From contig NZ_SGWX01000001.1 in NCBI RefSeq assembly GCF_004216535.1, positions 2,108,001-2,172,000 on the forward strand: DNA of 64,000 bases. The letters run 5' to 3'. Made by a program: the position numbers and the translations under genes. Shown in pieces: positions 2,584 through 30,829 of the stretch. The first letter of the stretch is position 1. Each line of letters begins with the position of its first letter. Below the pieces are notes generated by a model. That model had not been told where the DNA came from. It saw only the letters and a program-made list of their open reading frames with translations, and did not search any database. The stretch is from Xylanimonas ulmi (GTDB lineage: Bacteria > Actinomycetota > Actinomycetes > Actinomycetales > Cellulomonadaceae).

Positions 2584-3324
2584 ATGAGCCGGAGACGGAG
2601 CCGCGTTGACACTGGCGCTGGCGCGATTCAGCCTCGCGCGCACGCGCGGGAGCAGCCTCCCGAGCCGTGCCATCACGGGTGCAGGCTGACCGGCGCGCAC
2701 TACCCGACCTGCGACGGTGGCCGGTGCAAGGGCTGCCTGCCTCGCCCGGCCGACGTCGGCAATCTGTGCCAGTGGTGCTTCAACGAGCTCGGCCGCGACA
2801 TCGCCACCATCGGTGAGCGTCTGCCATGGCTCGACACGCTCGCCACTACCGCGCTCGACGCCTCGGCTGCGCCGCCGGACGAGATCGTGACCCGCGCCGG
2901 CGACCCGGCCGAGGGAACCGTCTTGCATCCTGCCGCGCTGGCCGCTGACGAGGCCCGCTCGATCCTGGTCTTCTACGTGCGTGTGGTGGCGGACGAGCGG
3001 GGGCTGCGTGACGTCGACGCGCACGACCCGGCCGCGTGGCTGGCGCCGCACCTGGACTGGCTCGCCGGGCAGGAGTTCGCGCACGACCTGCGCGCCGAGC
3101 TCGCCCACCTCGCCGGCGCTGTGTCCCGCTTCCACGGTCCTGGCGACGTCGAGCCTGCCCGCCCGCTCGACGAGCCGTGTCCGCGCTGCGACCAGATCGC
3201 GTTGTGGGTGACGCCGCCGCGGTGGGGTGGGCAGGAGGAGCGGGTGGAGTGCACCAACCCGGACTGTGCGCGCGTGTTCTCTGAGGGAGAGTGGGCGCGC
3301 TTTCAGGGGACGGCGGCGGCGTGA
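2584..3324 (+). CDS. Phage zinc-ribbon protein, 246 aa
   Basis: A strong AGGAGG stands 7 bases before the ATG. The N-terminal part has a cysteine/histidine cluster (CHHGC, then CDGGRCKGC and CQWC), and the C-terminus has a second pair of knuckles (CPRCD and CTNPDCARVF). The middle is alpha-helical and acidic. Two zinc ribbons at opposite ends suggest nucleic-acid or protein binding. Proteins of this build are common between the replication and terminase genes of actinophages and generally lack an assigned function. I call it structural-zinc and regulatory by inference only. Confidence 0.72.
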   Translation: MSRRRSRVDTGAGAIQPRAHAREQPPEPCHHGCRLTGAHYPTCDGGRCKGCLPRPADVGNLCQWCFNELGRDIATIGERLPWLDTLATTALDASAAPPDEIVTRAGDPAEGTVLHPAALAADEARSILVFYVRVVADERGLRDVDAHDPAAWLAPHLDWLAGQEFAHDLRAELAHLAGAVSRFHGPGDVEPARPLDEPCPRCDQIALWVTPPRWGGQEERVECTNPDCARVFSEGEWARFQGTAAA

Positions 3325-3554
3325 GCGTCAACCTCGTCGTCAGCGCCCCGCGAGGTGCTCGCACCTACTGGTCGGGATGGTGTGCGCACAGGCACCCGAG
3401 GTGGGCAGAACAGACGCGCGGCGTGTCCAAGGGCACGTTCGGGTGGCCGCCCACGACGCACCGAGACGGATCCCTCGCGGAGGTGCTCTCCTGGGCGACG
3501 GAGCATGCAGCGCTGCTCCATGGGGGGCGCTTCGAGATCGAATGGCGTCTATGA
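3321..3554 (+). CDS. Small phage protein, 77 aa
   Basis: The GTG start overlaps the stop of the zinc-ribbon gene (GTGA), and its own stop overlaps the next ATG (ATGA), so the three are translationally coupled. The product has a WSGWCAHRHPRW motif and a tryptophan-rich tail (GRFEIEWRL). No family is recognised. A longer start at 3291 is possible but would overlap the zinc-ribbon gene by 34 bases without a better ribosome site. Confidence 0.55.
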   Translation: MSVNLVVSAPRGARTYWSGWCAHRHPRWAEQTRGVSKGTFGWPPTTHRDGSLAEVLSWATEHAALLHGGRFEIEWRL

Positions 3555-3748
3555 GCGACCAGTGGGCGTCCGTCCCTGACGCGTGCCGGCTCGTGCGAGT
3601 CACCCCCGGCACCGTGTACGTGTGGGTCCACCGCGGCAAGGTCGCGACCCGCCACGAATGCGGCCGGCTGCTGGTCAACGTCGCTGACCTGCGACGCGCC
3701 GAAGCGGCCTGGCGTGTCCGGCTACGCAGGCGCGCCGCAAAAGTGTAA
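3551..3748 (+). CDS. MerR/excisionase-type helix-turn-helix protein, 65 aa
   Basis: The ATG at 3551 overlaps the previous stop. The product reads as a minimal winged helix-turn-helix: ASVPDACRLVRVTPGTVYVWVHRGKV is the helix-turn-helix followed by the wing strand (in MerR/AlpA/Xis-like proteins the W and the R/K after 'GTVYVW' sit in the recognition part), then a basic C-terminus RRRAAKV. Proteins of this fold act as phage excisionases or small transcription regulators. The location just before the terminator and terminase genes suits a regulator of the early-to-late transition, which is inferred. Confidence 0.72.
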   Translation: MSDQWASVPDACRLVRVTPGTVYVWVHRGKVATRHECGRLLVNVADLRRAEAAWRVRLRRRAAKV

Positions 3749-3780
3749 GATCCGATGCCTGGAGGAGTATGTCCTCAACC

Positions 3781-3812
3781 AAGGCCCGGACGTCACCACG
3801 ACGCCGGGCCTT
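3781..3812 (+). terminator. Hairpin between early and packaging genes
   Basis: AAGGCCCGG and CCGGGCCTT form a perfect 9-bp stem around a 14-base loop. It lies 33 bp after the HTH gene stop and just before the terminase genes. There is no clean T run. It argues against starting the terminase small subunit at the upstream ATG (3714), which would translate through the hairpin. Confidence 0.6.
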
Positions 3813-3845
3813 CGGCATGCGCGGCGGGAGGGCGGTGACGCCCTC

Positions 3846-4370
3846 GTGGCAGAGAAGATCGTTCGCACCGCCGAGCAGGCGGACACGCTCCGGCAACTCG
3901 TCCAGCAGCCCGGCATGACCCAACGCAAGGCGGGCAAGGCGCTCGGAGTCTCACAGTCCACGATCGCCCGCTGGTCCGACGACCTCGGCATCCCATGGAA
4001 TCGCGACCCTGTGAAGCCAGCCGTCGCCGCGAAGGTGTTCGACGCCAAGGCGAAACGCGCCCAGCTCGAGAAAGACCTCCTCGACGACGCCGCCCGGCTG
4101 CGCCAGCAAATATGGGAACCGCACGAGTACATCGACCACGGCGGCAAGAACTTCACCGAGGTCCGATGGACGCAGGCCGAACCATCCCCCGCGGACAAAC
4201 TCAAACTCATGCAGGCCGCCACGGTCGCCGTGCGGCACTCCCTCGACATCGCCAAGCACGACAGCGAGGCAAACGAGTACACCGAGCAGCGCAACGTCGT
4301 CGATGAGCTCATGGACCGACTGCGCCGCACCGCGCCAACCGACGACGACGGCGAAGCCGTGGAGGGTTGA
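3846..4370 (+). CDS. Terminase small subunit (candidate)
   Basis: This 174-residue protein sits directly before the large terminase. After AEKIVRTAEQAD it has a helix-turn-helix (MTQRKAGKALGVSQSTIARW), then a long charged helical region and an acidic tail. TerS proteins bind the packaging site through an N-terminal HTH and assemble as a ring that hands DNA to TerL, and the size and position fit. I chose the GTG at 3846 because it lies downstream of the hairpin and follows GGGAGGG. An upstream ATG at 3714 would overlap the HTH gene. The call rests on context plus HTH architecture rather than on a diagnostic motif. Confidence 0.72.
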   Translation: MAEKIVRTAEQADTLRQLVQQPGMTQRKAGKALGVSQSTIARWSDDLGIPWNRDPVKPAVAAKVFDAKAKRAQLEKDLLDDAARLRQQIWEPHEYIDHGGKNFTEVRWTQAEPSPADKLKLMQAATVAVRHSLDIAKHDSEANEYTEQRNVVDELMDRLRRTAPTDDDGEAVEG

Positions 4371-4372
4371 CG

Positions 4373-5635
4373 TTGACCGACTTCCCGATCTCGACCAAAC
4401 AGCACAAAGCGATCGTCGAGGCGGAGAAGCACCGCATTGCGCTCCTTGAGGGGGCCGTCCGCTCTGGCAAGACGTTCGCGGTCTGTCTCGCGTTCTTCGG
4501 CGCGGTCAGGAACGCCCCCCGCTCGGGGCTCATCCTCATCACGGGCCGCACCCTGCAGACCATCGAGCGCAACATCATCGAGCCGATGATGGACGGCGCA
4601 CTGTTCGGGACGCTCGCCGCCGCAGTCGAGCACACCCGCGGATCGTCCACCGCACGAGTCCTCGGCCGCGAGGTCCACCTCGTCGGCGCAAACGACGCCC
4701 GCGCAGAGGAGAAGCTGCGCGGCCTGACCGCATGCCTGGCCATGTGCGACGAGGCAACCCTGCTGCCCGAGGCGTTCTGGGCGCAGCTCCTCGCCCGCCT
4801 GTCCGTGCCTGGCGCCCGCCTCATCGCGACGACGAACCCCGGATCGCCGCGGCACTGGCTCAAGACCAAGTACCTCGACCGGGCCGACAAGCTCGACATG
4901 GTGTCGTTCAAGTTCCGGCTCGATGACAACCCGTCGCTCACCGAGACGTACAAGAACAACCTCAAGGCCGAACAGACCGGGCTGTTCTACCGGCGCAACA
5001 TCAACGGCGAATGGGTCGCGGCCGAGGGCAGCGTCTACCCGATGTTCGACCCCACCAAGCACGTGATGCCTCGCTCGAAGATGCCGCAGATGCATCGCGT
5101 GCTCGCGCTCGGCATCGACTACGGAGACACACACCGCACCGCGGGCATCCTGCTCGGCCTTGGCCCTGACCCGCGCGGCGCGGATCGTCTGTACGTCCTC
5201 GCCGAGTGGGCACCGCCGGCCGTGACCATCGGGGAGATGTCGAAGCACCTGCGTGACTGGATGGCAGGGCAGCCGGAGCCGGAGTGGATTCCTTACGACC
5301 ATGCTGCGGCGGCGTTCGGCCACCAGTTGCGGACGGACGGCTTCTCCGGCGTCATGCGTGCACACAAGTCGGTCATGAGCGGCATCCGCGTCGTGGGAGC
5401 GCTTCTCGCCGCTGATCGGCTCGTGATCGCCGACGACGCGACGAACCTGCTCGACGAGGTTCCGTCATACACGTGGGATCCGAAAGCGACTGAGCGCGGC
5501 GAGGACTCTCCCGTGAAGGCAGACGACGACTTCGTGGACGCCGCCCGCTACGCCATCTTCTCGACGCTGATCCACTGGCGCGACGCCGTGCCGCTCACCG
5601 CGCCCGGCGCTGACACAGGAGAGGAGGACGACTGA
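4373..5635 (+). CDS. Terminase large subunit (TerL)
   Basis: The packaging motor carries Walker A GAVRSGKT (residues 27-34), a Walker B-like LAMCDEA, the coupling segment ATTNPGSPRHW and a C-terminal RNase H-like nuclease with GIDYGD, EWIPYDHA and DDDFVDAARYA providing the acidic metal ligands. It translocates DNA into the prohead at the portal and cuts concatemers. Two TTG codons are possible starts. I prefer 4373 because GGAGGG stands 6 bases before it; the one at 4367 lies on the ribosome site. The stop overlaps the portal ATG. About 420 residues is normal for the family. Confidence 0.95.
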   Translation: MTDFPISTKQHKAIVEAEKHRIALLEGAVRSGKTFAVCLAFFGAVRNAPRSGLILITGRTLQTIERNIIEPMMDGALFGTLAAAVEHTRGSSTARVLGREVHLVGANDARAEEKLRGLTACLAMCDEATLLPEAFWAQLLARLSVPGARLIATTNPGSPRHWLKTKYLDRADKLDMVSFKFRLDDNPSLTETYKNNLKAEQTGLFYRRNINGEWVAAEGSVYPMFDPTKHVMPRSKMPQMHRVLALGIDYGDTHRTAGILLGLGPDPRGADRLYVLAEWAPPAVTIGEMSKHLRDWMAGQPEPEWIPYDHAAAAFGHQLRTDGFSGVMRAHKSVMSGIRVVGALLAADRLVIADDATNLLDEVPSYTWDPKATERGEDSPVKADDDFVDAARYAIFSTLIHWRDAVPLTAPGADTGEEDD

Positions 5636-7176
5636 TGCCTTTGCCCGTCCGTGACCAGGCTTGGCCGCCCGCCGACCTGCAGCCCGTGCAGGCCAAGCTG
5701 CGCGAGTGGGACGCCTGGTGGACCGGCGACCCCAGCGCGCTCGAGCGCGCCTACCGTGGCACCGCGTCCCCGACCCCGGCCGACCGGCCCGCGCAGCGGC
5801 GCGGCGGTGTCGTCGGCGCGTTGGCCCGGTTCTGGTGGGGTCGCCCGATCAACGCGAACGGGCAGCGCCGCGACGACACGCATGTGCCGTTGGCGTCCGA
5901 CATCGCCCGCGCCAGCGCCGACATGCTGTTCTCGCAGCCGCTGACCCTCACCGTCGACGACAAGGGCGCACAGGCCCGCCTTGACACGCTCCTGGCCGAC
6001 CAGGCGTACGCGACGCTCACCGGGGCGGCCGAGCAGGCCGCCGCCCTGGGTGGCGTGTACGTCAAGGTGGCGTTCGACCGCGAGGTCGCCGACACCGCGT
6101 TCCTGGTGTCCGAGCCCGCCGACCGCGCCATCCCCGAGCTCGCGTTCGGGCGGCTGCGCGCGGTCACGTTCTGGCGGGTCGTCCGGTCGGAGGGGCAGCA
6201 GGTGTGGCGGCACCTTGAGCGGCACGAGGTCGACGCCGGCGGGTACGGCGTGACCCAGCACGGCCTGTACCAGGGCACACCCGACCGGCTCGGCCGGCCC
6301 GTCCCGCTCGCCGACGTCGACGCCCTCGCCCCGCTCGCCGGGTCGGTCAACGAGGACGGGTACGTCACCGAAGGCGCGACACCGGGCCTGGACGTCGTGT
6401 ACGTCCCGAACGACGCCGCCGCTGCGGCGCGGGCGTGGCGGCACATCCCGACCGCTGACGGGTGGGGCGCGTCCGACTTCGACGGTGTTGAGGGGTTCCT
6501 CGACAACCTCGACGAGGCGTACGCGTCGTGGATGCGAGACATCCGCCTCGGCAAGGCCCGCCTGCTCCTCGCGCAGTACATGCTCGACAGCAACGGTCCC
6601 GGCCTGGGCGCCGCGTTCGACCTCGACCGGGACGTGTACACGCCGCTCAAGATGGCCGCCGTCGAGGACGGGGACGCCCCGATCACGCAGGTGCAGTTCG
6701 CGATCCGGTTCGCGGAGCACAAGGCGACCGTGGACCACTGGACCGACCAGATCATCACGTCGTCCGGGTACTCCCCCGCCACATTCGGGCGCGACAGCCG
6801 CGGGTCGGCGATGACGGCCACCGAGGTCGACGCCCGTGAGGCGCGGTCTGCGACCACGCGGGCGCGGAAGATCCGCACGTGGTCGCCTGCGCTGCGGCAG
6901 ATCATCGCGAAGCTGCTCGAGGTCGACGCGGTCGTGTTCAACCGTGGGGCGACGCCGGCGGACGGGTTGCGGGTGCTGTTCCCTGACGCGGTGCAGCAGA
7001 CCCCGGAGGATCGGGCGCAGGCCGCGCAACTGTTGAAGGCTGCGGGTGCGGCGTCGACGGACACGCTGGTGCGGATGGTGAATCCGGACTGGGACGACGT
7101 CACAGTGGGGGACGAGGTGGCGCGGATCCTCGCGGAGAACGCGGCCTTGCCTGACCCGTATTCGTTCGGCGGCTGA
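5635..7176 (+). CDS. Portal protein, SPP1 gp6-like
   Basis: The product is 513 residues, starts in overlap with the TerL stop and ends in overlap with a 51-residue ORF. Portal features include an N-terminal tryptophan-rich segment (REWDAWWTGD), a central region with ADMLFSQPLTL and AALGGVYVKVAFD, the long helical part with WTDQIITSSGYSP and GRDSRGSAMTATEV, and a C-terminal helical crown. Twelve copies form the ring through which DNA enters and to which the connectors attach. The order TerL, portal, MuF-like, scaffold, capsid makes the call secure. Confidence 0.92.
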   Translation: MPLPVRDQAWPPADLQPVQAKLREWDAWWTGDPSALERAYRGTASPTPADRPAQRRGGVVGALARFWWGRPINANGQRRDDTHVPLASDIARASADMLFSQPLTLTVDDKGAQARLDTLLADQAYATLTGAAEQAAALGGVYVKVAFDREVADTAFLVSEPADRAIPELAFGRLRAVTFWRVVRSEGQQVWRHLERHEVDAGGYGVTQHGLYQGTPDRLGRPVPLADVDALAPLAGSVNEDGYVTEGATPGLDVVYVPNDAAAAARAWRHIPTADGWGASDFDGVEGFLDNLDEAYASWMRDIRLGKARLLLAQYMLDSNGPGLGAAFDLDRDVYTPLKMAAVEDGDAPITQVQFAIRFAEHKATVDHWTDQIITSSGYSPATFGRDSRGSAMTATEVDAREARSATTRARKIRTWSPALRQIIAKLLEVDAVVFNRGATPADGLRVLFPDAVQQTPEDRAQAAQLLKAAGAASTDTLVRMVNPDWDDVTVGDEVARILAENAALPDPYSFGG

Positions 7177-19355: not shown

Positions 19356-21203
19356 ATGGCGCACCAGGTCATCGACGTCGTCACCCCGTACATCTCCACG
19401 CCCGGCGCGGTGAACCCCGCGCTGCTGGCCGCGGCGACCGCGAACGCCGCCGCACTGGTCGACAACACCGTGGCGGCGCTCGCGCTGCCCGCCCAGGTCC
19501 ACCAGGAGGTCGTCGAGCAGGTCACGTCGAGCCCGACCGTGATCGACGCGGCCACCGCCGCCGTGGCCGCCGCATTCACGGCCGCCGCTCCCGCCGATGT
19601 GCTCGCCGCGGTCTCCGGGGCCGCGTTCTACCGCGGCCAGCTCTCGGCCGGGTCCAGCGCCGACGTGCTGCGCCTGCGCGCCGACGTGGGCGTGTGGTCG
19701 GTCTATGACACCGCGACCGCCGAGACCATCACCGGCCTGCCCGTGGCCGCGCCCGGGACGCTGACCGTCGCCTGGGTGCGTGGGAGTGGGGCCACGTCGT
19801 CGGTCGCGATGCAGGAGTACCGCACGGTCTCTGGCGCCGCATACACCCGCGAGGCGTCGTCGTCCGGGTGGACGCCATGGGAGCGCACCTCGTGGACGCG
19901 CGGCCAGCTCTCGGCCGGGTCCAGCGTCGACGTGCTGCGCCTGGCCGAGGACGTGGGCGTGTGGTCGGTCTATGACGCCGCCACCGCCGCCGCGATCACC
20001 GGCCTGCCCCGCCCGTGGTCGGGCGCGCTGACTGTGTGGTGGGTGCGCGGGGGTAGCCTGTCCACATCCGTGGCCATGCAGGAGTACCGCACGACGGACG
20101 GCGAGGTCTACACCCGCCAGACCTCAGGGGCGGGCTGGACGCCCTGGGCGGCCCCGGGGTCGGCGTCCATCACCCGCGTCGACATCTTCCTCGCCGCCGG
20201 CCAGTCGAACATGTCGGGTCGCGGCACCCCGTATGGCGCCGACCTCGATCCGCCCCACCCGCGCATCTGGGAGGTCGGGGCTCATGCGCCCACACTGCGG
20301 GTCGCGTCCGTGCCCCTCGACATGCGCGGCGACAACCCCAACGCGGCCCTGTCCATCGCCACCACATTCGCCCGCGAGTGGGTCGCCCGCACCGGCGAGA
20401 CCACCGTGGCCCTGCTGGTCCCGGCCGCCCAGGGCGGCACCGGATTCGACTCCGGCACCTGGAATTGGCGTGACCCTGACGGCCCCTGGTCCCTGACCGC
20501 GGCCATGCTCACGCAGACCGCCACCGCGATCGCAGCCGCCCAGGCCAAGTGGCCCGGCGCGACGGTCACCGTGCGAGGCATGCTGTGGCACCAGGGCGAG
20601 AACTCCTCCGGCCTCGACCAGCCCGGCTACACCGCCGCCATCGACGACCTCTTCGCCCGGGTCCGGGCCGGGCTCGGCGCCCCCGACCTGCCCATCATCC
20701 TCGGCGAACTGTCCCCGGACCGCCGCGAGGGCGCCCCCGAGCGGGTCTCCGACCTGACCATCGCCGACACCCCGGCCCGCGTCGCGCGCACCGCCGTGGC
20801 GCACTCCCGCGCCGGACTGTCCCGGGACGGAGACCTGTCGCACTACGGGCGCGAGGGCGTCACCCTGCTCGGTCAGCGCATGGCCGACGCGTACACCGCC
20901 GCCGTCGCCAACGCGGCCGGCGTCCTGGCGATGCCGCCCGGATTCGTCCAGGCGTGGCGCGACGGGACTAGCGTCCGCGTCGAATGGTCGGCGCCACTGT
21001 GCCGCGCCACCGGCTACCAGGTCGCGACGTACGACGGGACGAACTGGACCACCGCAGGTGACGACCTGACCGTGATCGGCCGCCGCGCGACCATCACCGG
21101 CGCCCGCGCCACCACCACCACACACGTGCGCATCGCCACCCTCACCCCGTCCGGGACCTCGCGCCCCACGCCGCAGATCCCGGTGGGCGCACACTCCGCC
21201 TGA
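19356..21203 (+). CDS. Tail fibre with SGNH/sialate-O-acetylesterase-like domain
   Basis: The product has 615 residues. Residues 1-90 are an Ala-rich helical attachment part. Two tandem copies (about 92-178 and 182-267) of a knob-like repeat share RGQLSAGSS, DVGVWSVYD, ITGLP, VAMQEYRT and GWTPW. Residues 275-535 are a carbohydrate esterase of the SASA type: GQSNMSG (Ser284), WHQGENS (411-417) and DLSHYG (Asp493/His496) supply the nucleophile, oxyanion residues and the Asp-His pair. A fibronectin type III-like end follows. The fibre should bind the host surface and remove acyl groups from a cell-wall or capsule glycan. Substrate unknown. Confidence 0.86.
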   Translation: MAHQVIDVVTPYISTPGAVNPALLAAATANAAALVDNTVAALALPAQVHQEVVEQVTSSPTVIDAATAAVAAAFTAAAPADVLAAVSGAAFYRGQLSAGSSADVLRLRADVGVWSVYDTATAETITGLPVAAPGTLTVAWVRGSGATSSVAMQEYRTVSGAAYTREASSSGWTPWERTSWTRGQLSAGSSVDVLRLAEDVGVWSVYDAATAAAITGLPRPWSGALTVWWVRGGSLSTSVAMQEYRTTDGEVYTRQTSGAGWTPWAAPGSASITRVDIFLAAGQSNMSGRGTPYGADLDPPHPRIWEVGAHAPTLRVASVPLDMRGDNPNAALSIATTFAREWVARTGETTVALLVPAAQGGTGFDSGTWNWRDPDGPWSLTAAMLTQTATAIAAAQAKWPGATVTVRGMLWHQGENSSGLDQPGYTAAIDDLFARVRAGLGAPDLPIILGELSPDRREGAPERVSDLTIADTPARVARTAVAHSRAGLSRDGDLSHYGREGVTLLGQRMADAYTAAVANAAGVLAMPPGFVQAWRDGTSVRVEWSAPLCRATGYQVATYDGTNWTTAGDDLTVIGRRATITGARATTTTHVRIATLTPSGTSRPTPQIPVGAHSA

Positions 21204-23192: not shown

Positions 23193-23687
23193 TCAGCCGA
23201 AGGGCAGTACTCCCGGAAGCGATTGCGCGACGCGGAACGGCATCCGATGCATCTCGCTCTCGTCGATGGTGATCACGAACGCGTATGCGCCCGGGCGCTC
23301 GAACGGGTACGAGTCGATGTTGAGCGCGAACGGGATGTGCTGGGAGTCGCCAGGCATGATCCCCGGAGGCCGACCCATGTTGAACTGGGCCTCGATCTGC
23401 CCCAGGTTGTCCCCGCCCTCGGGCGCGCCTGGACCAAGCGGGAGACGTTGTCCGTCCTCCGCCTCAAGGTGGATGGTGAGACGGTGCGCCTGGTTCGTCG
23501 CGGTATAGGGCACGGCCACGGACAGCGCGATGCCGATCCGAGGAGACGCTGCGGGGAGCGCCGGAAACGAGAGCATGCTCCATCCGCCGCCCTGGATGTA
23601 GAGCTTGCCTTCTGCGGTTACAGCGGAGTCACAAAGCATGCCGTCGACTGTGAAGTCGGTGATTGATGCGCGAGCTGGATGAGCCAT
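23193..23687 (-). CDS. Prophage accessory protein (DUF6941-like), 164 aa
   Basis: The product starts MAHPARASITDFTVDGMLCD with AAAGGA 8 bases upstream. It is a beta-rich protein with EGKLYIQGGGWSML, IGIALSVAVPY, AHRLTIHLEAEDGQ and a C-terminal YAFVITIDESEMHR. This pattern resembles proteins labelled DUF6941, found scattered in actinobacterial genomes and prophages with no known role. It is transcribed away from a divergent RHH gene and against the lysis operon, so it is likely expressed from the prophage state. The family label is from memory and needs a profile search. Confidence 0.7.
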   Translation of the reverse strand: MAHPARASITDFTVDGMLCDSAVTAEGKLYIQGGGWSMLSFPALPAASPRIGIALSVAVPYTATNQAHRLTIHLEAEDGQRLPLGPGAPEGGDNLGQIEAQFNMGRPPGIMPGDSQHIPFALNIDSYPFERPGAYAFVITIDESEMHRMPFRVAQSLPGVLPFG

Positions 23688-23811
23688 GTCGCACGTCCTT
23701 TCGGGGTGTCCGGAGTCGGTCTGTATGACAGACCGTACCACCACGGCACGCTTGCGTATACATTTGATCCCTAGTTGTATGACACCACACCCCGACAGGA
23801 AGGAACGCCAC
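23688..23811. promoter_or_regulatory. Divergent promoter with GTATGACA operators
   Basis: The region between the divergent genes holds a perfect inverted repeat GGTCTG-TATGA-CAGACC (23,718-23,734). The 8-bp word GTATGACA inside it (23,723-23,730) recurs at 23,777-23,784. TTGCGTATACATTTGAT between the two copies is unusually A/T-rich for this genome and may hold a promoter. Operators for the adjacent RHH protein are likely. Confidence 0.55.
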
Positions 23812-24090
23812 ATGGGCACTGCAACACGAGGCTCGGTCCTCTCGCTGAGGCTTTCCGATCGCGAGCGCGAGGCGCTGCGCGTCGCCGCCGAGGCGCGCGG
23901 TACGGGCGTGTCCGAGTTGGTGCGCTCGATGGTCGCCAAGGAGCTCAGCCCGTCACCGTCTCCGCGCGGCGCCACCACGTCGGGGCAGTCAGCACCGGCA
24001 ACTGTCGGCCAGGGCGTCTTCTGGCAGATGGGCACAGGCGGCGCGACGGCCTCCGGAGGCCGTATCACAACGACGTCACCGACGTCCTGA
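23812..24090 (+). CDS. Ribbon-helix-helix DNA-binding protein, 92 aa
   Basis: The ATG at 23,812 follows GGAAGGAA. Residues 7-45 are a CopG/Arc-type RHH domain: GSVLSLRLSDREREALRVAA (strand plus helix A) and GTGVSELVRSMVAKEL (turn plus helix B). The tail is low-complexity, Gly/Ser/Thr-rich. RHH proteins dimerise and insert a beta sheet in the DNA major groove. The paired GTATGACA sites upstream suggest it represses its own and the divergent gene. Longer starts upstream run through the operators and are rejected. Confidence 0.78.
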   Translation: MGTATRGSVLSLRLSDREREALRVAAEARGTGVSELVRSMVAKELSPSPSPRGATTSGQSAPATVGQGVFWQMGTGGATASGGRITTTSPTS

Positions 24091-24117
24091 TCGACGCCAG
24101 TCGACCACCACGCCCCC

Positions 24118-24150
24118 GGCCCCTCTCCGCTTCGGCGGGGAGGGGCCTTT
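24118..24150. terminator. Strong intrinsic terminator with TTCG loop
   Basis: GGCCCCTCTCCGC and GCGGGGAGGGGCC (one G-T pair) form a 13-bp stem around TTCG, followed by TTT. It lies between the convergent stops of the RHH gene (24,090) and the HTH gene (24,165), and can serve both strands. Confidence 0.85.
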
Positions 24151-24164
24151 CGGCGCGCCCGGGG

Positions 24165-24557
24165 TCAGTCGTCGGCGTCGAGCTCGGTGCGGGTGCCGAT
24201 GGCGACGCCGGGGATCTCGTGGGCTGCGCGTGCGACGACGTGCCGCCACCAGCGGGCGGGCAGGTGGGCGAGGTCGGGGCGTGCGGCGTGCATGTCGGCG
24301 TCCGTGCGGTAGACGACGACGGCGGGGTCGCGGGCGTCCTGCAGGGCGGTGACGACCTCTCCGACGGCGGTCGCGGTGTCGGCCTCGACCTGTTCGACCT
24401 CCTGGCGCACGCGCAGCGGGATGGGGTCGCGGCCGGACTCCCAGCGGCGGACGGTGTCGTGGCGGACGTCGAGGATGGCGGCGAGGGATTCGGTTGTGAG
24501 GCCGAGGTACTCGCGTACGGTCTGCAGCTCGCCGCCGGTCATGCGGTCGTCGGTCAT
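24165..24557 (-). CDS. Aca2/YdiL-like HTH regulator
   Basis: The product has 130 residues from ATG 24,557 with GGAAGGGG upstream. The first 65 residues are an HTH domain: GGELQTVREYLGLTTESLAA, then VRHDTVRRWESGRDPIPLRV. The run W-E-S-G-R-x-x-I-P followed by a long helix and a C-terminal part (PAVVVYRTDADMHAARPDL, ARWWRHVVARAAHEI) matches the layout of YdiL/DUF1870 proteins, the fold of the anti-CRISPR-associated repressor Aca2. Aca2 represses its own operon by binding palindromes at the promoter. Here a small ORF and a palindromic promoter lie upstream. The domain layout is seen; the Aca2 link is inference from similarity I recall. Confidence 0.78.
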   Translation of the reverse strand: MTDDRMTGGELQTVREYLGLTTESLAAILDVRHDTVRRWESGRDPIPLRVRQEVEQVEADTATAVGEVVTALQDARDPAVVVYRTDADMHAARPDLAHLPARWWRHVVARAAHEIPGVAIGTRTELDADD

Positions 24558-24580
24558 GGTGGTCCCCTTCCGAGAGGGTT

Positions 24581-24613
24581 GAGCCCCCACCCCTTGTTGC
24601 GGGGTGGGGGCTC
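24581..24613 (-). terminator. Perfect 13-bp hairpin between small ORF and HTH gene
   Basis: GAGCCCCCACCCC and GGGGTGGGGGCTC are exact complements around a 7-base loop. In the minus direction it lies 7 bp after the 49-residue ORF and 24 bp before the regulator's start. It could act as attenuator, making the first gene's transcript more abundant than the regulator's. There is no strong U tract. Confidence 0.75.
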
Positions 24614-24620
24614 GTGGTTG

Positions 24621-24770
24621 TCAGCGGAGCAGTTCGCGGGCGTCGGCGATGACGTCGGTGATGCTGTCGTAGGTCTCGCCGTACTCCTCGATGAGCTCGA
24701 CGACCTTGGTGAGTTCGGTGTCGGAGAGGGACTGGCGGACCATCGCGGTGAGTGCGGAGGTGGTGATCAT
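24621..24770 (-). CDS. Small acidic protein, 49 aa (candidate anti-CRISPR-like cargo)
   Basis: The ATG at 24,770 has AAGGAG 6 bases upstream. The product MITTSALTAMVRQSLSDTEL continues as an amphipathic, acidic helix (VVELIEEYGETYDSITDVIA) and ends DARELLR. It is all-helical and has no membrane part. It is first in a two-gene operon with an Aca2-like regulator, directly next to the attachment site, which is the place where prophages keep acr or other counter-defence genes. Its function is unknown. Alternatives are an antitoxin-like or regulatory partner of the HTH protein. Confidence 0.68.
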   Translation of the reverse strand: MITTSALTAMVRQSLSDTELTKVVELIEEYGETYDSITDVIADARELLR

Positions 24771-24826
24771 CGTCGGCTCCTTGTGCCGTCGTGGTCTGGG
24801 GCTGTTCCCCTGACCTCGTGACACTC

Positions 24827-24855
24827 ACTCTACCCCACAGTTTGTGGGGCGACTA
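24827..24855 (-). promoter_or_regulatory. Promoter with palindromic operator filling the spacer
   Basis: Read on the minus strand: -35-like TAGTCG (24,855-24,850), then CCCCACA-AAC-TGTGGGG (24,849-24,833), then -10-like TAGAGT (24,832-24,827). The perfect palindrome is exactly the 17-bp spacer. A protein bound there would block the polymerase. The most likely ligand is the HTH protein of the same operon. The -10 matches 4 of 6 and the -35 3 of 6 consensus bases. Confidence 0.6.
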
Positions 24856-24889
24856 GTCGGGAGGGCAGGCCGACCGGGTGAAGCGCGAC

Positions 24890-24945
24890 ACATCTGTATG
24901 CCGGGAAGCCGCCTATACAGCCGAAGGGATTCCGTCGGGGATGAC
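24890..24945. other. Right prophage-host junction (attR or attL)
   Basis: Phage sequence ends and the host ATPase frame begins here. CTGTAT (24,894-24,899) and ATACAG (24,915-24,920) form inverted arms 15 bp apart on the phage side. The host side reads, on the minus strand, CACGTGGTCATCCCCGACGG, where the encoded HVVIPD is the conserved start of a CpaF motif and the next residues diverge. The crossover is likely in or next to CATCCCCGACGG. The mate at the left end is outside the window. Confidence 0.65.
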
Positions 24946-25395
24946 CACGTGCAGTCGCGAGCCGTCCGGCAGCGCGGCGTCGACGAACGGCGAGCTCAGG
25001 TCCAGGCGCCGCCCGCTCGCCTTGAGCATGCGCTCGACCAGGTCGCGCACCTGCCCCGCGGTGAGGATGGTCGTGGTCAGCTCGGGCACGCCCCCGCGCG
25101 CGACGAACACCTGGGCCGGGGAGTTGAGCCAGACCTCCTCGACCTGGGGGTCGTCGAGGTACTGCTGCAGCGGTCCGAGCCCCGCGAGGGTGTCGACGAC
25201 GGCGCGCGCGGCCTGCTCGGGGTCGGCGAGGGCGGGTACGAGCCCCCGCGCGGTGCGCTCGGCGTAGTCGCCCAGCGCGTCGGACACGAGACGGTCGAGC
25301 GCGGCGCGCTCGCGCACGGGGTCGAGCCCGCGGCGGCGCACGAGCTCACGCACCTCCTGCTCGAGGATGGCTGCGGCGTCGATCACGGCGGTCAT
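24913..25395 (-). pseudogene. cpaF: CpaF/TadA-type pilus ATPase, N-terminal fragment cut by prophage
   Basis: The fragment has 160 codons starting at ATG 25,395. They match the N-terminal domain of CpaF/TadA ATPases: a helical start ([20 protein letters not shown]), [20 protein letters not shown] (the GPLxxLLxDPxVxEIxxN block), [20 protein letters not shown] and [18 protein letters not shown]. Intact proteins then have a conserved basic stretch and the Walker A and B motifs. Here the frame changes after IPD and stops nine codons later at the prophage edge. CpaF powers Flp-type pili or secretion. The rest of the gene and the downstream operon should lie left of the prophage. Confidence 0.85.
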
Positions 25396-28046: not shown

Positions 28047-29423
28047 TCAGGGGCAGATGCCCGGGCGCAGCGCCGGGGCCGGCGGCTCCGGTTCCGGGGC
28101 GGGAGCCTCGGCCGGGCTCTCGACCCCAGGCTCCTGCGCGGGAGCGTCGGCGGGCGGGGTGGCAGGAGCGTCGGCGCCCGGCTCCCCCGTCGCGCCGTCG
28201 TCTGCGGCGTCGTCTGCCGCGGGCGGCGGCTCGGGCGCGACGAGCTGCGGCGGCGGCTCGTCGGCGATCATGCGCGCCCAGATGACGTCGGCCTCGCGCG
28301 TGATCCACACGACCCGGTTCGGGTCGCTCGGCGCCGCGGTCACCGGCAGCGGCGTGAACACGATGTGGGCGGGGTCCAGGTCGCGCAGGCTCCATGCCAG
28401 GCCCGCAAGCGACGTCGGACTGGCGAGCCCGCGGCCCGTGGAGATCGACGCAAGGACGGCCTCGACGGTGCGCAACAGCCGCGGCGCGTCGGTGATGACG
28501 TTCTGCCGCAGCACCTCACGCAGCATCGCCTCGACGAACGTCTGCTGGCGCTCGATGCGGGCCAGGTCCGAGCCGAGCTCCAGCCCCATGCCGCGTCCGC
28601 CGCGGGCGCGCAGGAAGTTGATGGACTGGTCGCCGTCGAGGACCTGCTCGCCGGCGGGCAGGTCGAGGTTGATGTAGCGATTGCCGCGCACCGGCTCGGG
28701 CAGGCACATCCGCACGCCGCCCAGGGCGTCGACGACGTCCACGACCCCGTTCATCATGACGACGATGTGGTCGGTGACGCGCACGCCGGTCAGGTGCTCG
28801 ACCGTCAGGATGGCGCACGCCGCGGCGGTGGTCAGGTCGCGCTCGCCGCCGCCGCCGAGCGAGAACGCGGAGTTGAACATGCCGCGCTGGGGCCGGGACT
28901 CACCGCCGCCGGGCAGCGGGCACGCGGGGATGTCGACCAGCGAGTCACGCGGGATCGAGACGACCTCGACGCGGCTGCGGTCGCTCGCGACGTGCACCAG
29001 CAGGGTCGTGTCGGAGTGGAACTCGTTGCCCGCTCCGGCGAGCGCGTCATTGCCGGCGCCCCGGTAGTCGGTGCCCATCACCAGGATGTTGAGCGGCTGC
29101 CCGGTGAACGGGTCGTCGGGCAGCGCCGGGCGGTCGTCGCGGTCGGCGAGCAGGGCGTCGACGTCCGAGACCTCCAGGCTGGCGCGCAGGTCCAGGTAGA
29201 CGGCGCAGCCGCCCGCGACCGCGAACGTCAGGGCGCTGGTGAGCGCCAGGCCGAGCACGCGCCGCACCCCCGACCGCCGCAGTCGGATCGCGTGCCGTGG
29301 TCCGTGCGTGGGCGCCGCGGGCTGCGCTCGCCGGGCCCGCGCGGGCGTGCGCGGGCGTCCCGCGTCACGCGCCCGTCGGCGCGTGCGGGGCTCGGCGCGA
29401 TGCCGGGGCTGCGGGGAGGGCAC
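28047..29423 (-). CDS. LytR-CpsA-Psr (LCP) family cell-wall ligase, copy 1
   Basis: The product has 458 residues from a GTG. A basic cytoplasmic N-terminus is followed by one membrane helix (VLGLALTSALTFAVAGGCAV, about 57-76) and the LCP domain: NILVMGTDYRG, FHSDTTLLVHV, EVVSIPRDSLV, then GGVRMCLPEPV, FLRARGGRGMGLELGSDLAR and RQQTFVEAM. The arginines and aspartates bind polyprenyl pyrophosphate. LCP enzymes attach teichoic-acid-like or arabinogalactan-type polymers to peptidoglycan outside the membrane. The tail is Pro/Ala/Glu-rich and ends RPGICP. A paralogue lies directly upstream. Confidence 0.92.
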   Translation of the reverse strand: MPSPQPRHRAEPRTRRRARDAGRPRTPARARRAQPAAPTHGPRHAIRLRRSGVRRVLGLALTSALTFAVAGGCAVYLDLRASLEVSDVDALLADRDDRPALPDDPFTGQPLNILVMGTDYRGAGNDALAGAGNEFHSDTTLLVHVASDRSRVEVVSIPRDSLVDIPACPLPGGGESRPQRGMFNSAFSLGGGGERDLTTAAACAILTVEHLTGVRVTDHIVVMMNGVVDVVDALGGVRMCLPEPVRGNRYINLDLPAGEQVLDGDQSINFLRARGGRGMGLELGSDLARIERQQTFVEAMLREVLRQNVITDAPRLLRTVEAVLASISTGRGLASPTSLAGLAWSLRDLDPAHIVFTPLPVTAAPSDPNRVVWITREADVIWARMIADEPPPQLVAPEPPPAADDAADDGATGEPGADAPATPPADAPAQEPGVESPAEAPAPEPEPPAPALRPGICP

Positions 29424-29503
29424 GGCTGGGACCGTAGTCGGCCCACGCAGCCGTCACGGGCGTGGGGCGCGTTCGACCCGCGCCGCGGGCGCGTGGCGTC
29501 ACG

Positions 29504-30829
29504 TCAGGGCGGACACACCCCCGGCAGAAGCGTCGCAGTCGGCGCGGAGGTCGCGCCGCCGCCGACCTCGACGCCGCCGTCCGTGCCGCCCGGGGTCTGA
29601 TCCCCCGCGGTCTCGCCGGGGGTTTGATCGCCCGAGGTTGGATCGGGCGGGGTCTGATCGGGCGGGGTCTGATCGCCGGGAGTCTGATCGCCGGGTGGCG
29701 CCGTGTCCCCCGGCGTGGGCGTCGACGCGGCCCCGTCGCCACCGTCCCCCGCTCCGGGCGCCCGGTCGGCGGCGATGCGCTCCCAGATCGGGTCTGTCTG
29801 CGAGGTGACCCACTCGACCCGTCCGGGGTGCGCCGCCGAGTCGACCACGGGCAGCGGCGTGAACACGATCTCACCGGGGTCGACCCCGCGCAGGCTCCAC
29901 GCCAGACCGGCGAGCGCGCGCGGGCTGGCCAGCTCGGGGCTGGTCGAGATCGAGCGCAGCACCGCCTCGACCAGCGAGTAGAGCCGCGGCGAGTCCATGA
30001 TGAGGTTCTGGGCGAGGATCGTGCGCAGCGTCGAGTCCAAGAACGCCTGCTGGCGCTTGATGCGCTCCAGGTCGCTGCCCAGCTCCAGGCCCATGCCGTG
30101 ACCCTTGCGGGCGCGCAGGAAGTTGATCGCCTGGTAGCCGCTGAGCGTCTGGCGCCCGGCCGGCAGGTCGAGGTCGACGTTCACTCCCCGCACGGGCTCG
30201 GGCAGGCACATCGGGACGCCGCCGAGGGCGTCGACGACGCCGATCACCCCGGTCATCTTGACCACGAAGTGGTCGGTGATCGGCACGCCCGTCAGGTCCT
30301 CGACGGTGAGGATGGTGCAGGCGGCCGCGCCGGTGACGTCCTTGCCGTCGCCGCCGCCGATCGCGAACGCCGTGTTGAACATGGCGTCGCGGCGCGGCGG
30401 GCTCTCGCCGCCGCCCGGCAGCGGGCACGCGGGGATGTCGACCAGCGAGTCGCGCGGGATCGAGACGACCTCGATCCGGCTGCGGTCGCCCGCCACGTGG
30501 ACGAGCAGCGTCGTGTCCGAGTGGAACTCGTCGCCGGCGCCGGCGAGCTCGTCGTTGCCCTCGCCCCGGTAGTCGGTGCCCATCACCAGGATGTTGAGCG
30601 CCTGGCCCGCGAAGGGGTCGTCGGGGTCGGCCGACACGGTCGGGCGGTCCGTGCGCTGTCCCAGCAGCGAGTCGACGTCGGACACCGTGATGTCGTTGCG
30701 CAGGTCGACGTAGGCGGCGGCCGCGCCGCCGCCGACGAACGCGAGCACTCCGGTCACGGTCATGCCCAGGGCGCGGCGGACGCGATGCCCTCGAAGGTGG
30801 GCGGCGTGCCGCGGCAGCGTGGTGACCAC
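29504..30829 (-). CDS. LytR-CpsA-Psr (LCP) family cell-wall ligase, copy 2
   Basis: The product has 441 residues from a GTG, same strand as copy 1 and 80 bp upstream of it. It shares nearly all motifs: one membrane helix (LGMTVTGVLAFVGGGAAAAY), NILVMGTDYRGEGNDELAG, VVSIPRDSLVDIPACPLPGG, CTILTVEDLTGVPI, LRARKGHGMGLELGSDLERI. The tail has repeated GDQTP/PDQTP pentapeptides and ends PGVCPP, as copy 1 ends PGICP. The pair looks like a tandem duplication that has since diverged in the tail. Role as in copy 1; possibly a different polymer. Confidence 0.92.
   Translation of the reverse strand: MVTTLPRHAAHLRGHRVRRALGMTVTGVLAFVGGGAAAAYVDLRNDITVSDVDSLLGQRTDRPTVSADPDDPFAGQALNILVMGTDYRGEGNDELAGAGDEFHSDTTLLVHVAGDRSRIEVVSIPRDSLVDIPACPLPGGGESPPRRDAMFNTAFAIGGGDGKDVTGAAACTILTVEDLTGVPITDHFVVKMTGVIGVVDALGGVPMCLPEPVRGVNVDLDLPAGRQTLSGYQAINFLRARKGHGMGLELGSDLERIKRQQAFLDSTLRTILAQNLIMDSPRLYSLVEAVLRSISTSPELASPRALAGLAWSLRGVDPGEIVFTPLPVVDSAAHPGRVEWVTSQTDPIWERIAADRAPGAGDGGDGAASTPTPGDTAPPGDQTPGDQTPPDQTPPDPTSGDQTPGETAGDQTPGGTDGGVEVGGGATSAPTATLLPGVCPP

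Follow-up and report, generated by a model that had tools for sequence, protein, structure and literature searches.

Aca2 is the case of a single helix-turn-helix (HTH) protein controlling its operon at both the DNA and the RNA level, and the Aca2 of Pectobacterium phage ZF40 reportedly binds RNA stem-loops of its own mRNA, a finding attributed to Birkholz et al. in 2024. In the acrIF8-aca2 operon of this temperate phage (NC_019522), a small gene stands first and the regulator second, the 17-bp spacer between -35 and -10 holds, by eye, a palindrome (IR1), and the leader folds into a 5' hairpin followed by a hairpin around the ribosome-binding site, a fold close to that of shuffled sequences (z -1.52, 12/200). 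These traits, together with the family and fold of the regulator, recur in an operon of Xylanimonas ulmi. It differs from ZF40 in that its first gene is not recognisably AcrIF8 and in that a G+C intergenic hairpin recurs in its group; furthermore, TTCG-type letters are common to promoter palindrome and leader hairpin in ZF40, whereas the Xylanimonas operator and first leader hairpin (H1) have no such letters in common. The fold of the regulator is also that of the YdiL-like Salmonella protein (1s4k) and of SO3848 of Shewanella (2ox6). For ydiL, an inverted repeat over the -10 is described, and the gene is said to stand alone (PMC8434428), whereas the Xylanimonas regulator is encoded in an operon of a mobile element, downstream of a structured leader. 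DUF1870 proteins of actinobacterial plasmids and phages are 51.2% (NZ_CP109588.1) and 46.6% (Streptomyces phage Gilgamesh) identical to it, and several of these loci have a palindromic operator and an exact or diverged leader, yet their first genes are longer or different, and in a Gordonia plasmid copy (L017) the HTH gene is directly preceded by the palindrome, and neither leader nor cargo lies between the two. We consider it probable that the Xylanimonas locus, in a temperate actinophage, is a self-limiting Aca2-type operon that follows the acrIF8-aca2 plan, with a probable translational layer of control. The window, i.e. the whole stretch of 64,000 nucleotides that was analysed, holds the following features:

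24827..24855, minus strand: predicted core promoter, read from the sequence as TAGTCG (24,855-24,850), a 17-bp spacer and TAGAGT (24,832-24,827)
24833..24849, no strand assigned: palindromic operator CCCCACA-AAC-TGTGGGG, filling the -35/-10 spacer of exactly 17 bp
24793..24815, minus strand: leader hairpin H1, GGUC-A-GGGG-AACAG-CCCC-A-GACC, near-invariant among relatives
24774..24788, minus strand: leader hairpin H2, CGGC-ACAAGGA-GCCG, with the Shine-Dalgarno sequence within the loop
24621..24770, minus strand: first gene, 49-residue acidic helical protein of unassigned function, an orphan sequence at a position that is usually acidic
24581..24613, minus strand: intergenic 13-bp G+C hairpin with a 7-nt loop, from the fold
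24165..24557, minus strand: second gene, 130-residue Aca2/YdiL-family (DUF1870) HTH regulator, from PF08965, Aca2 entries of the PDB and fold
24933..24939, no strand assigned: presumed att core CGTCGGG, 7 bp common to both junctions of the prophage with a cpaF-type gene (read by eye)

The two minus-strand genes of which an earlier note on this DNA spoke are present as open reading frames, at 24,770-24,621 and 24,557-24,165. Its view that the operon lies beside an attachment site also held: the left part of the window is prophage (phage ORFs judged by eye), a serine integrase with Resolvase (62.3 bits) and Recombinase (50.1 bits) domains is encoded at the opposite prophage end (L116), the two ends each hold one part of a split T2SSE/CpaF-type gene (114.9 bits for the C-terminal part; 19 bits, under the cut-off of 24.9, for the N-terminal one), and CCCGACG is read by eye at both junctions (in the window at 24,933-24,939), ~78 bp from the operon promoter. 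The operon is thus carried by a mobile element, and since it lies ~78 bp inside the right prophage end, integrase and operon would become neighbours across attP after excision. In an element of Cellulomonas sp. KH9 (L002/L109), a Phage_integrase gene (93.1 bits) lies immediately upstream of the operon. Two operon copies with identical printed sequence lie ~50 kb apart on one contig of another genome (L023 and L045 of G417), which suggests neighbouring or duplicated prophages. Several further features were seen in the window. Two proteins encoded at 23,193-24,090 adjoin the operon, one on the minus strand with a DUF6941 domain (104 bits) and a small ribbon-helix-helix-like one on the plus strand; a 250-nt direct repeat (76% identical) at 19,632-20,148 lies within a 615-residue phage ORF and is possibly part of a tail or receptor-binding protein; and two adjacent minus-strand LytR_cpsA_psr family genes at 28,047-30,829 (120.7 and 117.9 bits) are related to each other (repeat families D2 and D6-D8, 71-88% identical).

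The 130-residue HTH protein matches PF08965 (Aca2_YdiL) with 39.4 bits against a cut-off of 23.8, over model positions 1-111 of 118, and this profile outscores the general HTH models; the best PHROG is 955, 'HTH DNA binding protein'. The motifs ELQTVREYLGL, WESGRDPIP and WWRHV, on which the Aca2/DUF1870 assignment had first been based, are all present. Aca2 entries are also the nearest PDB sequences (8w35, E 0.0017; 7vjo, E 0.0021), and the AlphaFold2 model (pLDDT 96.6, 34 sequences) has ten PDB hits at E<=0.001, each of them to Aca2 (the Aca2-DNA entry 7vjq from ZF40 among these), SO3848 or the YdiL-like 1s4k. These alignments span 117-137 columns and cover, in the monomer model, both the N-terminal HTH and the fold of the C-terminal dimerisation domain of Aca2. 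Profile, fold and comparison thus agree on the family, and no unrelated regulator scores better. PADLOC returned weak matches to RmrA models, in the HTH part only (best E 0.00067, 16.7 bits). Relatives of the regulator are uncommon: PF08965 exceeds its cut-off in 6 of 221 genomes of the family (own genome included), and the protein finds matches in 23 of 396 genomes of the order (own genome included); of 50,697 phage records 14 match, some of these being duplicates. The Xylanimonas genome itself holds a second HTH relative, 40% identical (L046, G000:C1:2,998,277-2,998,642), which has neither leader nor palindrome and adjoins, by eye, an adenylosuccinate-lyase-like gene.

The 17-bp palindrome reported at 24,833-24,849 is indeed there and fits exactly between TAGTCG and TAGAGT, so that an inverted repeat lies inside the core promoter, as in Aca-type operons. 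By eye, the -35 is weak, with 3 of the 6 letters of the TTGACA consensus; relatives have a TTGCGC-like -35, a palindrome and a TA-rich -10 at similar spacing. The perfect palindrome is a single copy in the 3.97-Mb genome. On its own it is weak evidence, since CCCCACANNNTGTGGGG within 2 mismatches is present in 26 of 100 shuffled windows; such looser sites number 16 in the own genome versus 26 for the reversed control. The palindrome is significant because it is conserved in relatives, as a structure whose letters change: leader-bearing relatives with 63-78% identity (L002, L023, L024, L025, L068 and L082) have a palindrome with other letters at the same promoter position, imperfect in L025, and so do more distant Streptomyces elements. 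Examples are CCTCCTAAACTAGGAGG, CACCCTATTTTAGGGTG and (G)CTTCCTAAATTAGGAAG(C).

These changes follow the recognition helix of the regulator. Among 36 distinct operator/helix combinations, residue x of the R-x-W motif is associated with operator base -7 (reached in 0 of 2000 permutations) and base -6 (1 of 2000), values that overstate independence because the leader-bearing elements share ancestry. Palindromes that are misplaced or, being even-centred, mis-centred were kept in this test (L010, L013, L028, L051, L056, L058, L062, L069, L119), L066 was left out for want of a parsed helix, and L024 has a wrong printed heptad with the right x residue. DTxRRW goes with CCCCAC (4/4), RTxRRW with GTCC (2/2) and RSW with CACCC (2/2), while RHW or RNW goes with TTCC in 22 of 23 script-defined windows, the 23rd (L013) being misplaced and itself showing TTCC. 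The contrast between L111 (RRW, CGTCC) and its Streptomyces kin (RHW, CTTCC) is informative, and L089, with an RAW helix and a CTTCC operator, is an exception to a simple helix code. The autorepressor-style operator that the earlier note had proposed is thus supported both by its position in relatives and by its coupling to the helix; autorepression through operator occupancy, a reading taken from homology and covariation, is well supported.

To the earlier description we add a two-hairpin 5' leader at 24,815-24,774. It follows right after the promoter as GGTCAGGGGANNAGCCCCAGACC, with 19-26 nt from there to the start codon, and its first hairpin, H1, has the near-invariant sequence GGUCAGGGGANNAGCCCCAGACC. 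The Xylanimonas leader folds with -21.3 kcal/mol (z -4.78). In 34 distinct aligned leaders, the H1 positions pair in 97.8% of 271 cells, versus 23.6-63.2% when the pairing is slid. Both partners change in two of the eight pairs (a level reached by 7 of 500 shuffles), most of the covariation in H1 deriving from a few divergent loci, and four pairs never vary. Almost every leader has A/A, C/A or A/G, unpaired, at the flanking position of H1, which would break a DNA palindrome and, in our reading, suits an RNA internal loop. That H1 is a second DNA operator for the HTH protein is disfavoured by this position and by H1 having no letters in common with the operators. H2 behaves differently from H1 in that its stem letters differ while pairing is mostly kept: against shuffles that preserve letters rather than dinucleotides, the H2 stem averages 3.94 bp versus 1.85 (35 distinct spacers), and stems that reach 3 bp come in at least nine versions, among them CGGC/GCCG, GGCC/GGCC, GTCC/GGAC, CCGG/CCGG, GTCGG/CCGAC, CGACT/AGTCG and CTCCG/CGGAG. 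Four of the 35 have no stem above 2 bp (L025, the second L029 leader, L059 and L082).

The arrangement of these hairpins in some relatives points to an action on RNA. In L103 and L146, a module of an H1-like hairpin and H2 lies inside the operon ahead of the second gene, with no promoter or operator, and L134 has tandem H1-like hairpins, where GCCC/GGGC replaces GGTC/GACC in the second one; a similar tandem, in which the outer stem of the first hairpin is imperfect, occurs in L163 and L171. The latter two, both viral contigs, also have two separate promoters each, with palindrome, tandem hairpins and a Shine-Dalgarno hairpin, and one regulator may thus control several operons. H1 is not a known RNA family as far as Rfam goes, which gave no leader match in the window at 23,900-25,200 (E<=5) and none at the gathering threshold in five related loci. 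Our literature search found no published account of the leader, which may nonetheless exist in print.

The leader is tied to the HTH family. A search with the exact leader pattern alone retrieved 20 viral contigs, 19 of which have a PF08965 match at E<=0.001 (15 over the cut-off), the 20th being a 4.9-kb fragment that terminates at the leader. Across 84,980 species the pattern retrieved 14 contigs, from genera which, going by their titles, we take to be all Actinomycetota, and the HTH gene is in the locus in 13 of them; the apparent exception (L112) was rejected as such when its leader copy proved to be a CRISPR spacer. Six leader contexts are common to the viral and genome sets, with 29 distinct contexts overall. 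Wherever leader and HTH gene share a locus, the HTH gene lies downstream on the same strand, 245-1243 nt away, and in L029/L100, near the contig end, a further leader follows the HTH gene. When the pattern was loosened, 105 stretches matched, 80 of which were listed; 66 new ones were analysed and 41 tested with the profile. PF08965 was found in 4 of the 11 likely or doubtful records and in 1 of 30 chance-match controls (below the cut-off and with a stop), these controls matching the loosened pattern only and having been set apart beforehand, by eye, as lacking a leader context. Among 396 genomes of the phylum, both exact leader hits (the own genome and G768) have an adjacent HTH gene, and three hits with 2 mismatches have no HTH gene nearby and, by eye, no palindrome. 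In the own genome a search allowing up to 3 mismatches also gave one match in the reversed control, and only the exact hit was used.

Outside the leader-bearing group, most HTH relatives have no recognisable leader (e.g. L026, L027, L030, L017 and L046), and none was found upstream of the HTH hits in L004 (68% identity) and seven further loci. In 17 loci chosen for having no exact leader, versions with 5 mismatches occur in L028 and L019 and a diverged one, by eye, in L010. In the 396-genome phylum sample, the 23-nt leader is a specific sequence tag; it can therefore lead to first genes without likeness to anything known, with no need of established Acr or Aca sequences.

A third hairpin separates the two genes. 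The 13-bp stem that had been noted in the intergenic gap is present at 24,613-24,581, and the stretch folds with -38.2 kcal/mol (z -4.97); no U-run follows it in the window. In relatives, a hairpin of varying letters recurs in the gap that separates the HTH gene from the final cargo gene. Over 35 loci, all kept although some gaps are mis-parsed (10-25 nt, or an 80-nt fallback), the stem averages 9.17 bp versus 5.25 bp in shuffles that again preserve letters and not dinucleotides, and in 22 of the 35 at most 2 of 100 shuffles match the stem.

The gene plan described earlier, a small gene of no known kind first and the regulator second, is borne out by the comparison. The 49-residue ORF itself is not conserved, having no relative in 220 other genomes of the family nor in the phage records, while a usually acidic first ORF at that position is: first genes vary between elements, and 26 of 34 (a set that includes near-duplicates and one internal second gene) have an acidic-over-basic excess of at least five residues. 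Some printed first-gene ORFs are wrong-frame picks (e.g. L003, L018 and L057). The 49-residue protein is modelled from its single sequence as three helices, with a modest pLDDT of 71.2, and no family in Pfam, PHROGs, NCBIfam or PADLOC matches it significantly. PHROG 36653 'anti-restriction' (E 0.037) and DeaD_dimer (E 0.054) were rejected as below trust, and we do not claim membership of a recurrent YDIDAI...FWAIVE first-gene family, for which the score is 4.6 bits, a value that 15 of 500 shuffles attain. In a scan of ten genes from first or second position, E 0.03 was not bettered by any Pfam hit in nine, and the tenth has a weak HTH_17 match below the cut-off. Separately, L056, L058, L062, L063, L067, L103 and L139 have behind the leader a recurrent first gene of ~170 residues, mostly basic and thus unlike the acidic cargo, with an N-terminal HTH_17-like part (in L056, which was tested, E 0.0012, below the cut-off).

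With this in mind, we propose the following mechanism for the operon. The Aca2-type HTH protein, presumably as a dimer, would bind the palindrome between -35 and -10 and thereby block RNA polymerase, so that expression of the first gene would come as a burst followed by shut-down. The mRNA would start with the near-invariant H1, followed by H2 with the ribosome-binding site in its loop, and this transcript is probably also controlled at translation, with the HTH protein itself as the likeliest agent of that second layer. We infer this layer because the leader is conserved and tied to the HTH family and because the ZF40 Aca2 reportedly binds RNA. Since the letters of H1 are fixed while those of the operator vary, it is unlikely that the same HTH surface reads both by one code; RNA reading, if done by the HTH protein, would use residues other than the variable helix positions. 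The G+C hairpin in the gap probably lowers the dose of the regulator relative to the first gene, which itself would be an accessory gene for a dose-sensitive, small acidic protein, with counter-defence, not specifically anti-CRISPR, as the leading class.

A different reading, which we consider somewhat unlikely, is that of an accessory operon controlled at the DNA layer only, in which the HTH protein would not bind RNA and the leader hairpins would serve mRNA stability or make the ribosome-binding site accessible. The operator is coupled to the recognition helix while H1 stays constant, as if something other than the variable helix set H1; a host factor could bind H1, or H1 could merely stabilise the mRNA. 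Generic stabilising hairpins, however, need not keep their letters, whereas H1 is nearly letter-identical across genera, and H1 is tied to the HTH family.

The earlier note had gone one step further and taken the first gene as a candidate anti-CRISPR, with the HTH protein as its Aca2-type repressor. Its Aca2/DUF1870 assignment, operator and gene plan are supported, while this step is conjectural. Consistent with a true acr-aca operon are the Aca2 family, the operator in the spacer, the two-hairpin leader as in ZF40 acrIF8-aca2, and first genes in mobile elements that are small, mostly acidic and diverse. An encounter of such elements with CRISPR is recorded in Salinispora mooreana (L112), where an array with 49 repeats, each of 36 nt (locus 3,172-6,736), lies beside a Cas1 C-terminal match (97.7 bits) and has the leader copy within one 39-nt spacer. 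This spacer is identical over 29 nt, with no mismatch, to the leader and H2 start of L103, and among the 48 spacers of the array no other matches the analysed loci beyond 17 nt. One study reports CRISPR arrays in each of its 75 Salinispora strains (PMC4223832). Elements with the leader have thus been met by an actinobacterial CRISPR system, which slightly raised the low probability that we give to an acr-aca operon, yet CRISPR may meet any mobile element. Cas1 was found in 9 of 16 other carrier genomes (L113, L100 and L112 left out) versus 45 of 150 Streptomyces genomes, which is suggestive; since many of the matches are partial and the groups are unmatched, we set this frequency aside as proof. 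The own host genome has no Cas1, and the 49-residue protein has no family and no relatives. In one published survey, acr genes lie upstream of only 3% (35/1223) of Aca2-like proteins (PMC9410906). As the gene upstream of the aca-type gene has no recognisable anti-CRISPR match in Pfam, PHROGs, NCBIfam or PADLOC, the operon is not classed as acr-aca; anti-CRISPR activity of the first gene is a minority possibility, and an acr-aca operon is quite improbable. Most improbable of all is a toxin-antitoxin pair with the HTH protein as MqsA-like antitoxin repressor and the 49-residue protein as toxin, to which a weak likeness of the HTH part to MqsA-family antitoxins (TIGR03830, 30.2 bits, below the cut-off of 61.8) and the annotation 'Antitoxin' of the phage Bipper homologue point. 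Against it, the first gene matches no toxin family and switches family between elements, by eye, while the regulator persists, and the C-terminal part of the regulator has the Aca2/YdiL fold.

Returning to the self-limiting Aca2-type operon, its traits are those of a separate Aca2 branch in Actinomycetota, whose DNA operators change together with the recognition helix, the RNA leader being nearly fixed. Tentatively, this branch may amount to a shared regulon of actinobacterial phages, phage-plasmids and plasmids whose single Aca2-type HTH family would use two codes: a DNA operator that coevolves with the helix, and a nearly letter-fixed RNA module of H1 and H2 for translational control, repeated before individual genes in some operons. 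The swappable, mostly acidic first genes would form a counter-defence pool that can be found through the leader, and the leader would be what the CRISPR array recorded. Because the operator varies while the leader is nearly fixed, natural variants can show which surface of the protein reads which nucleic acid. A CRISPR spacer against the leader, if active, would target many unrelated elements together.
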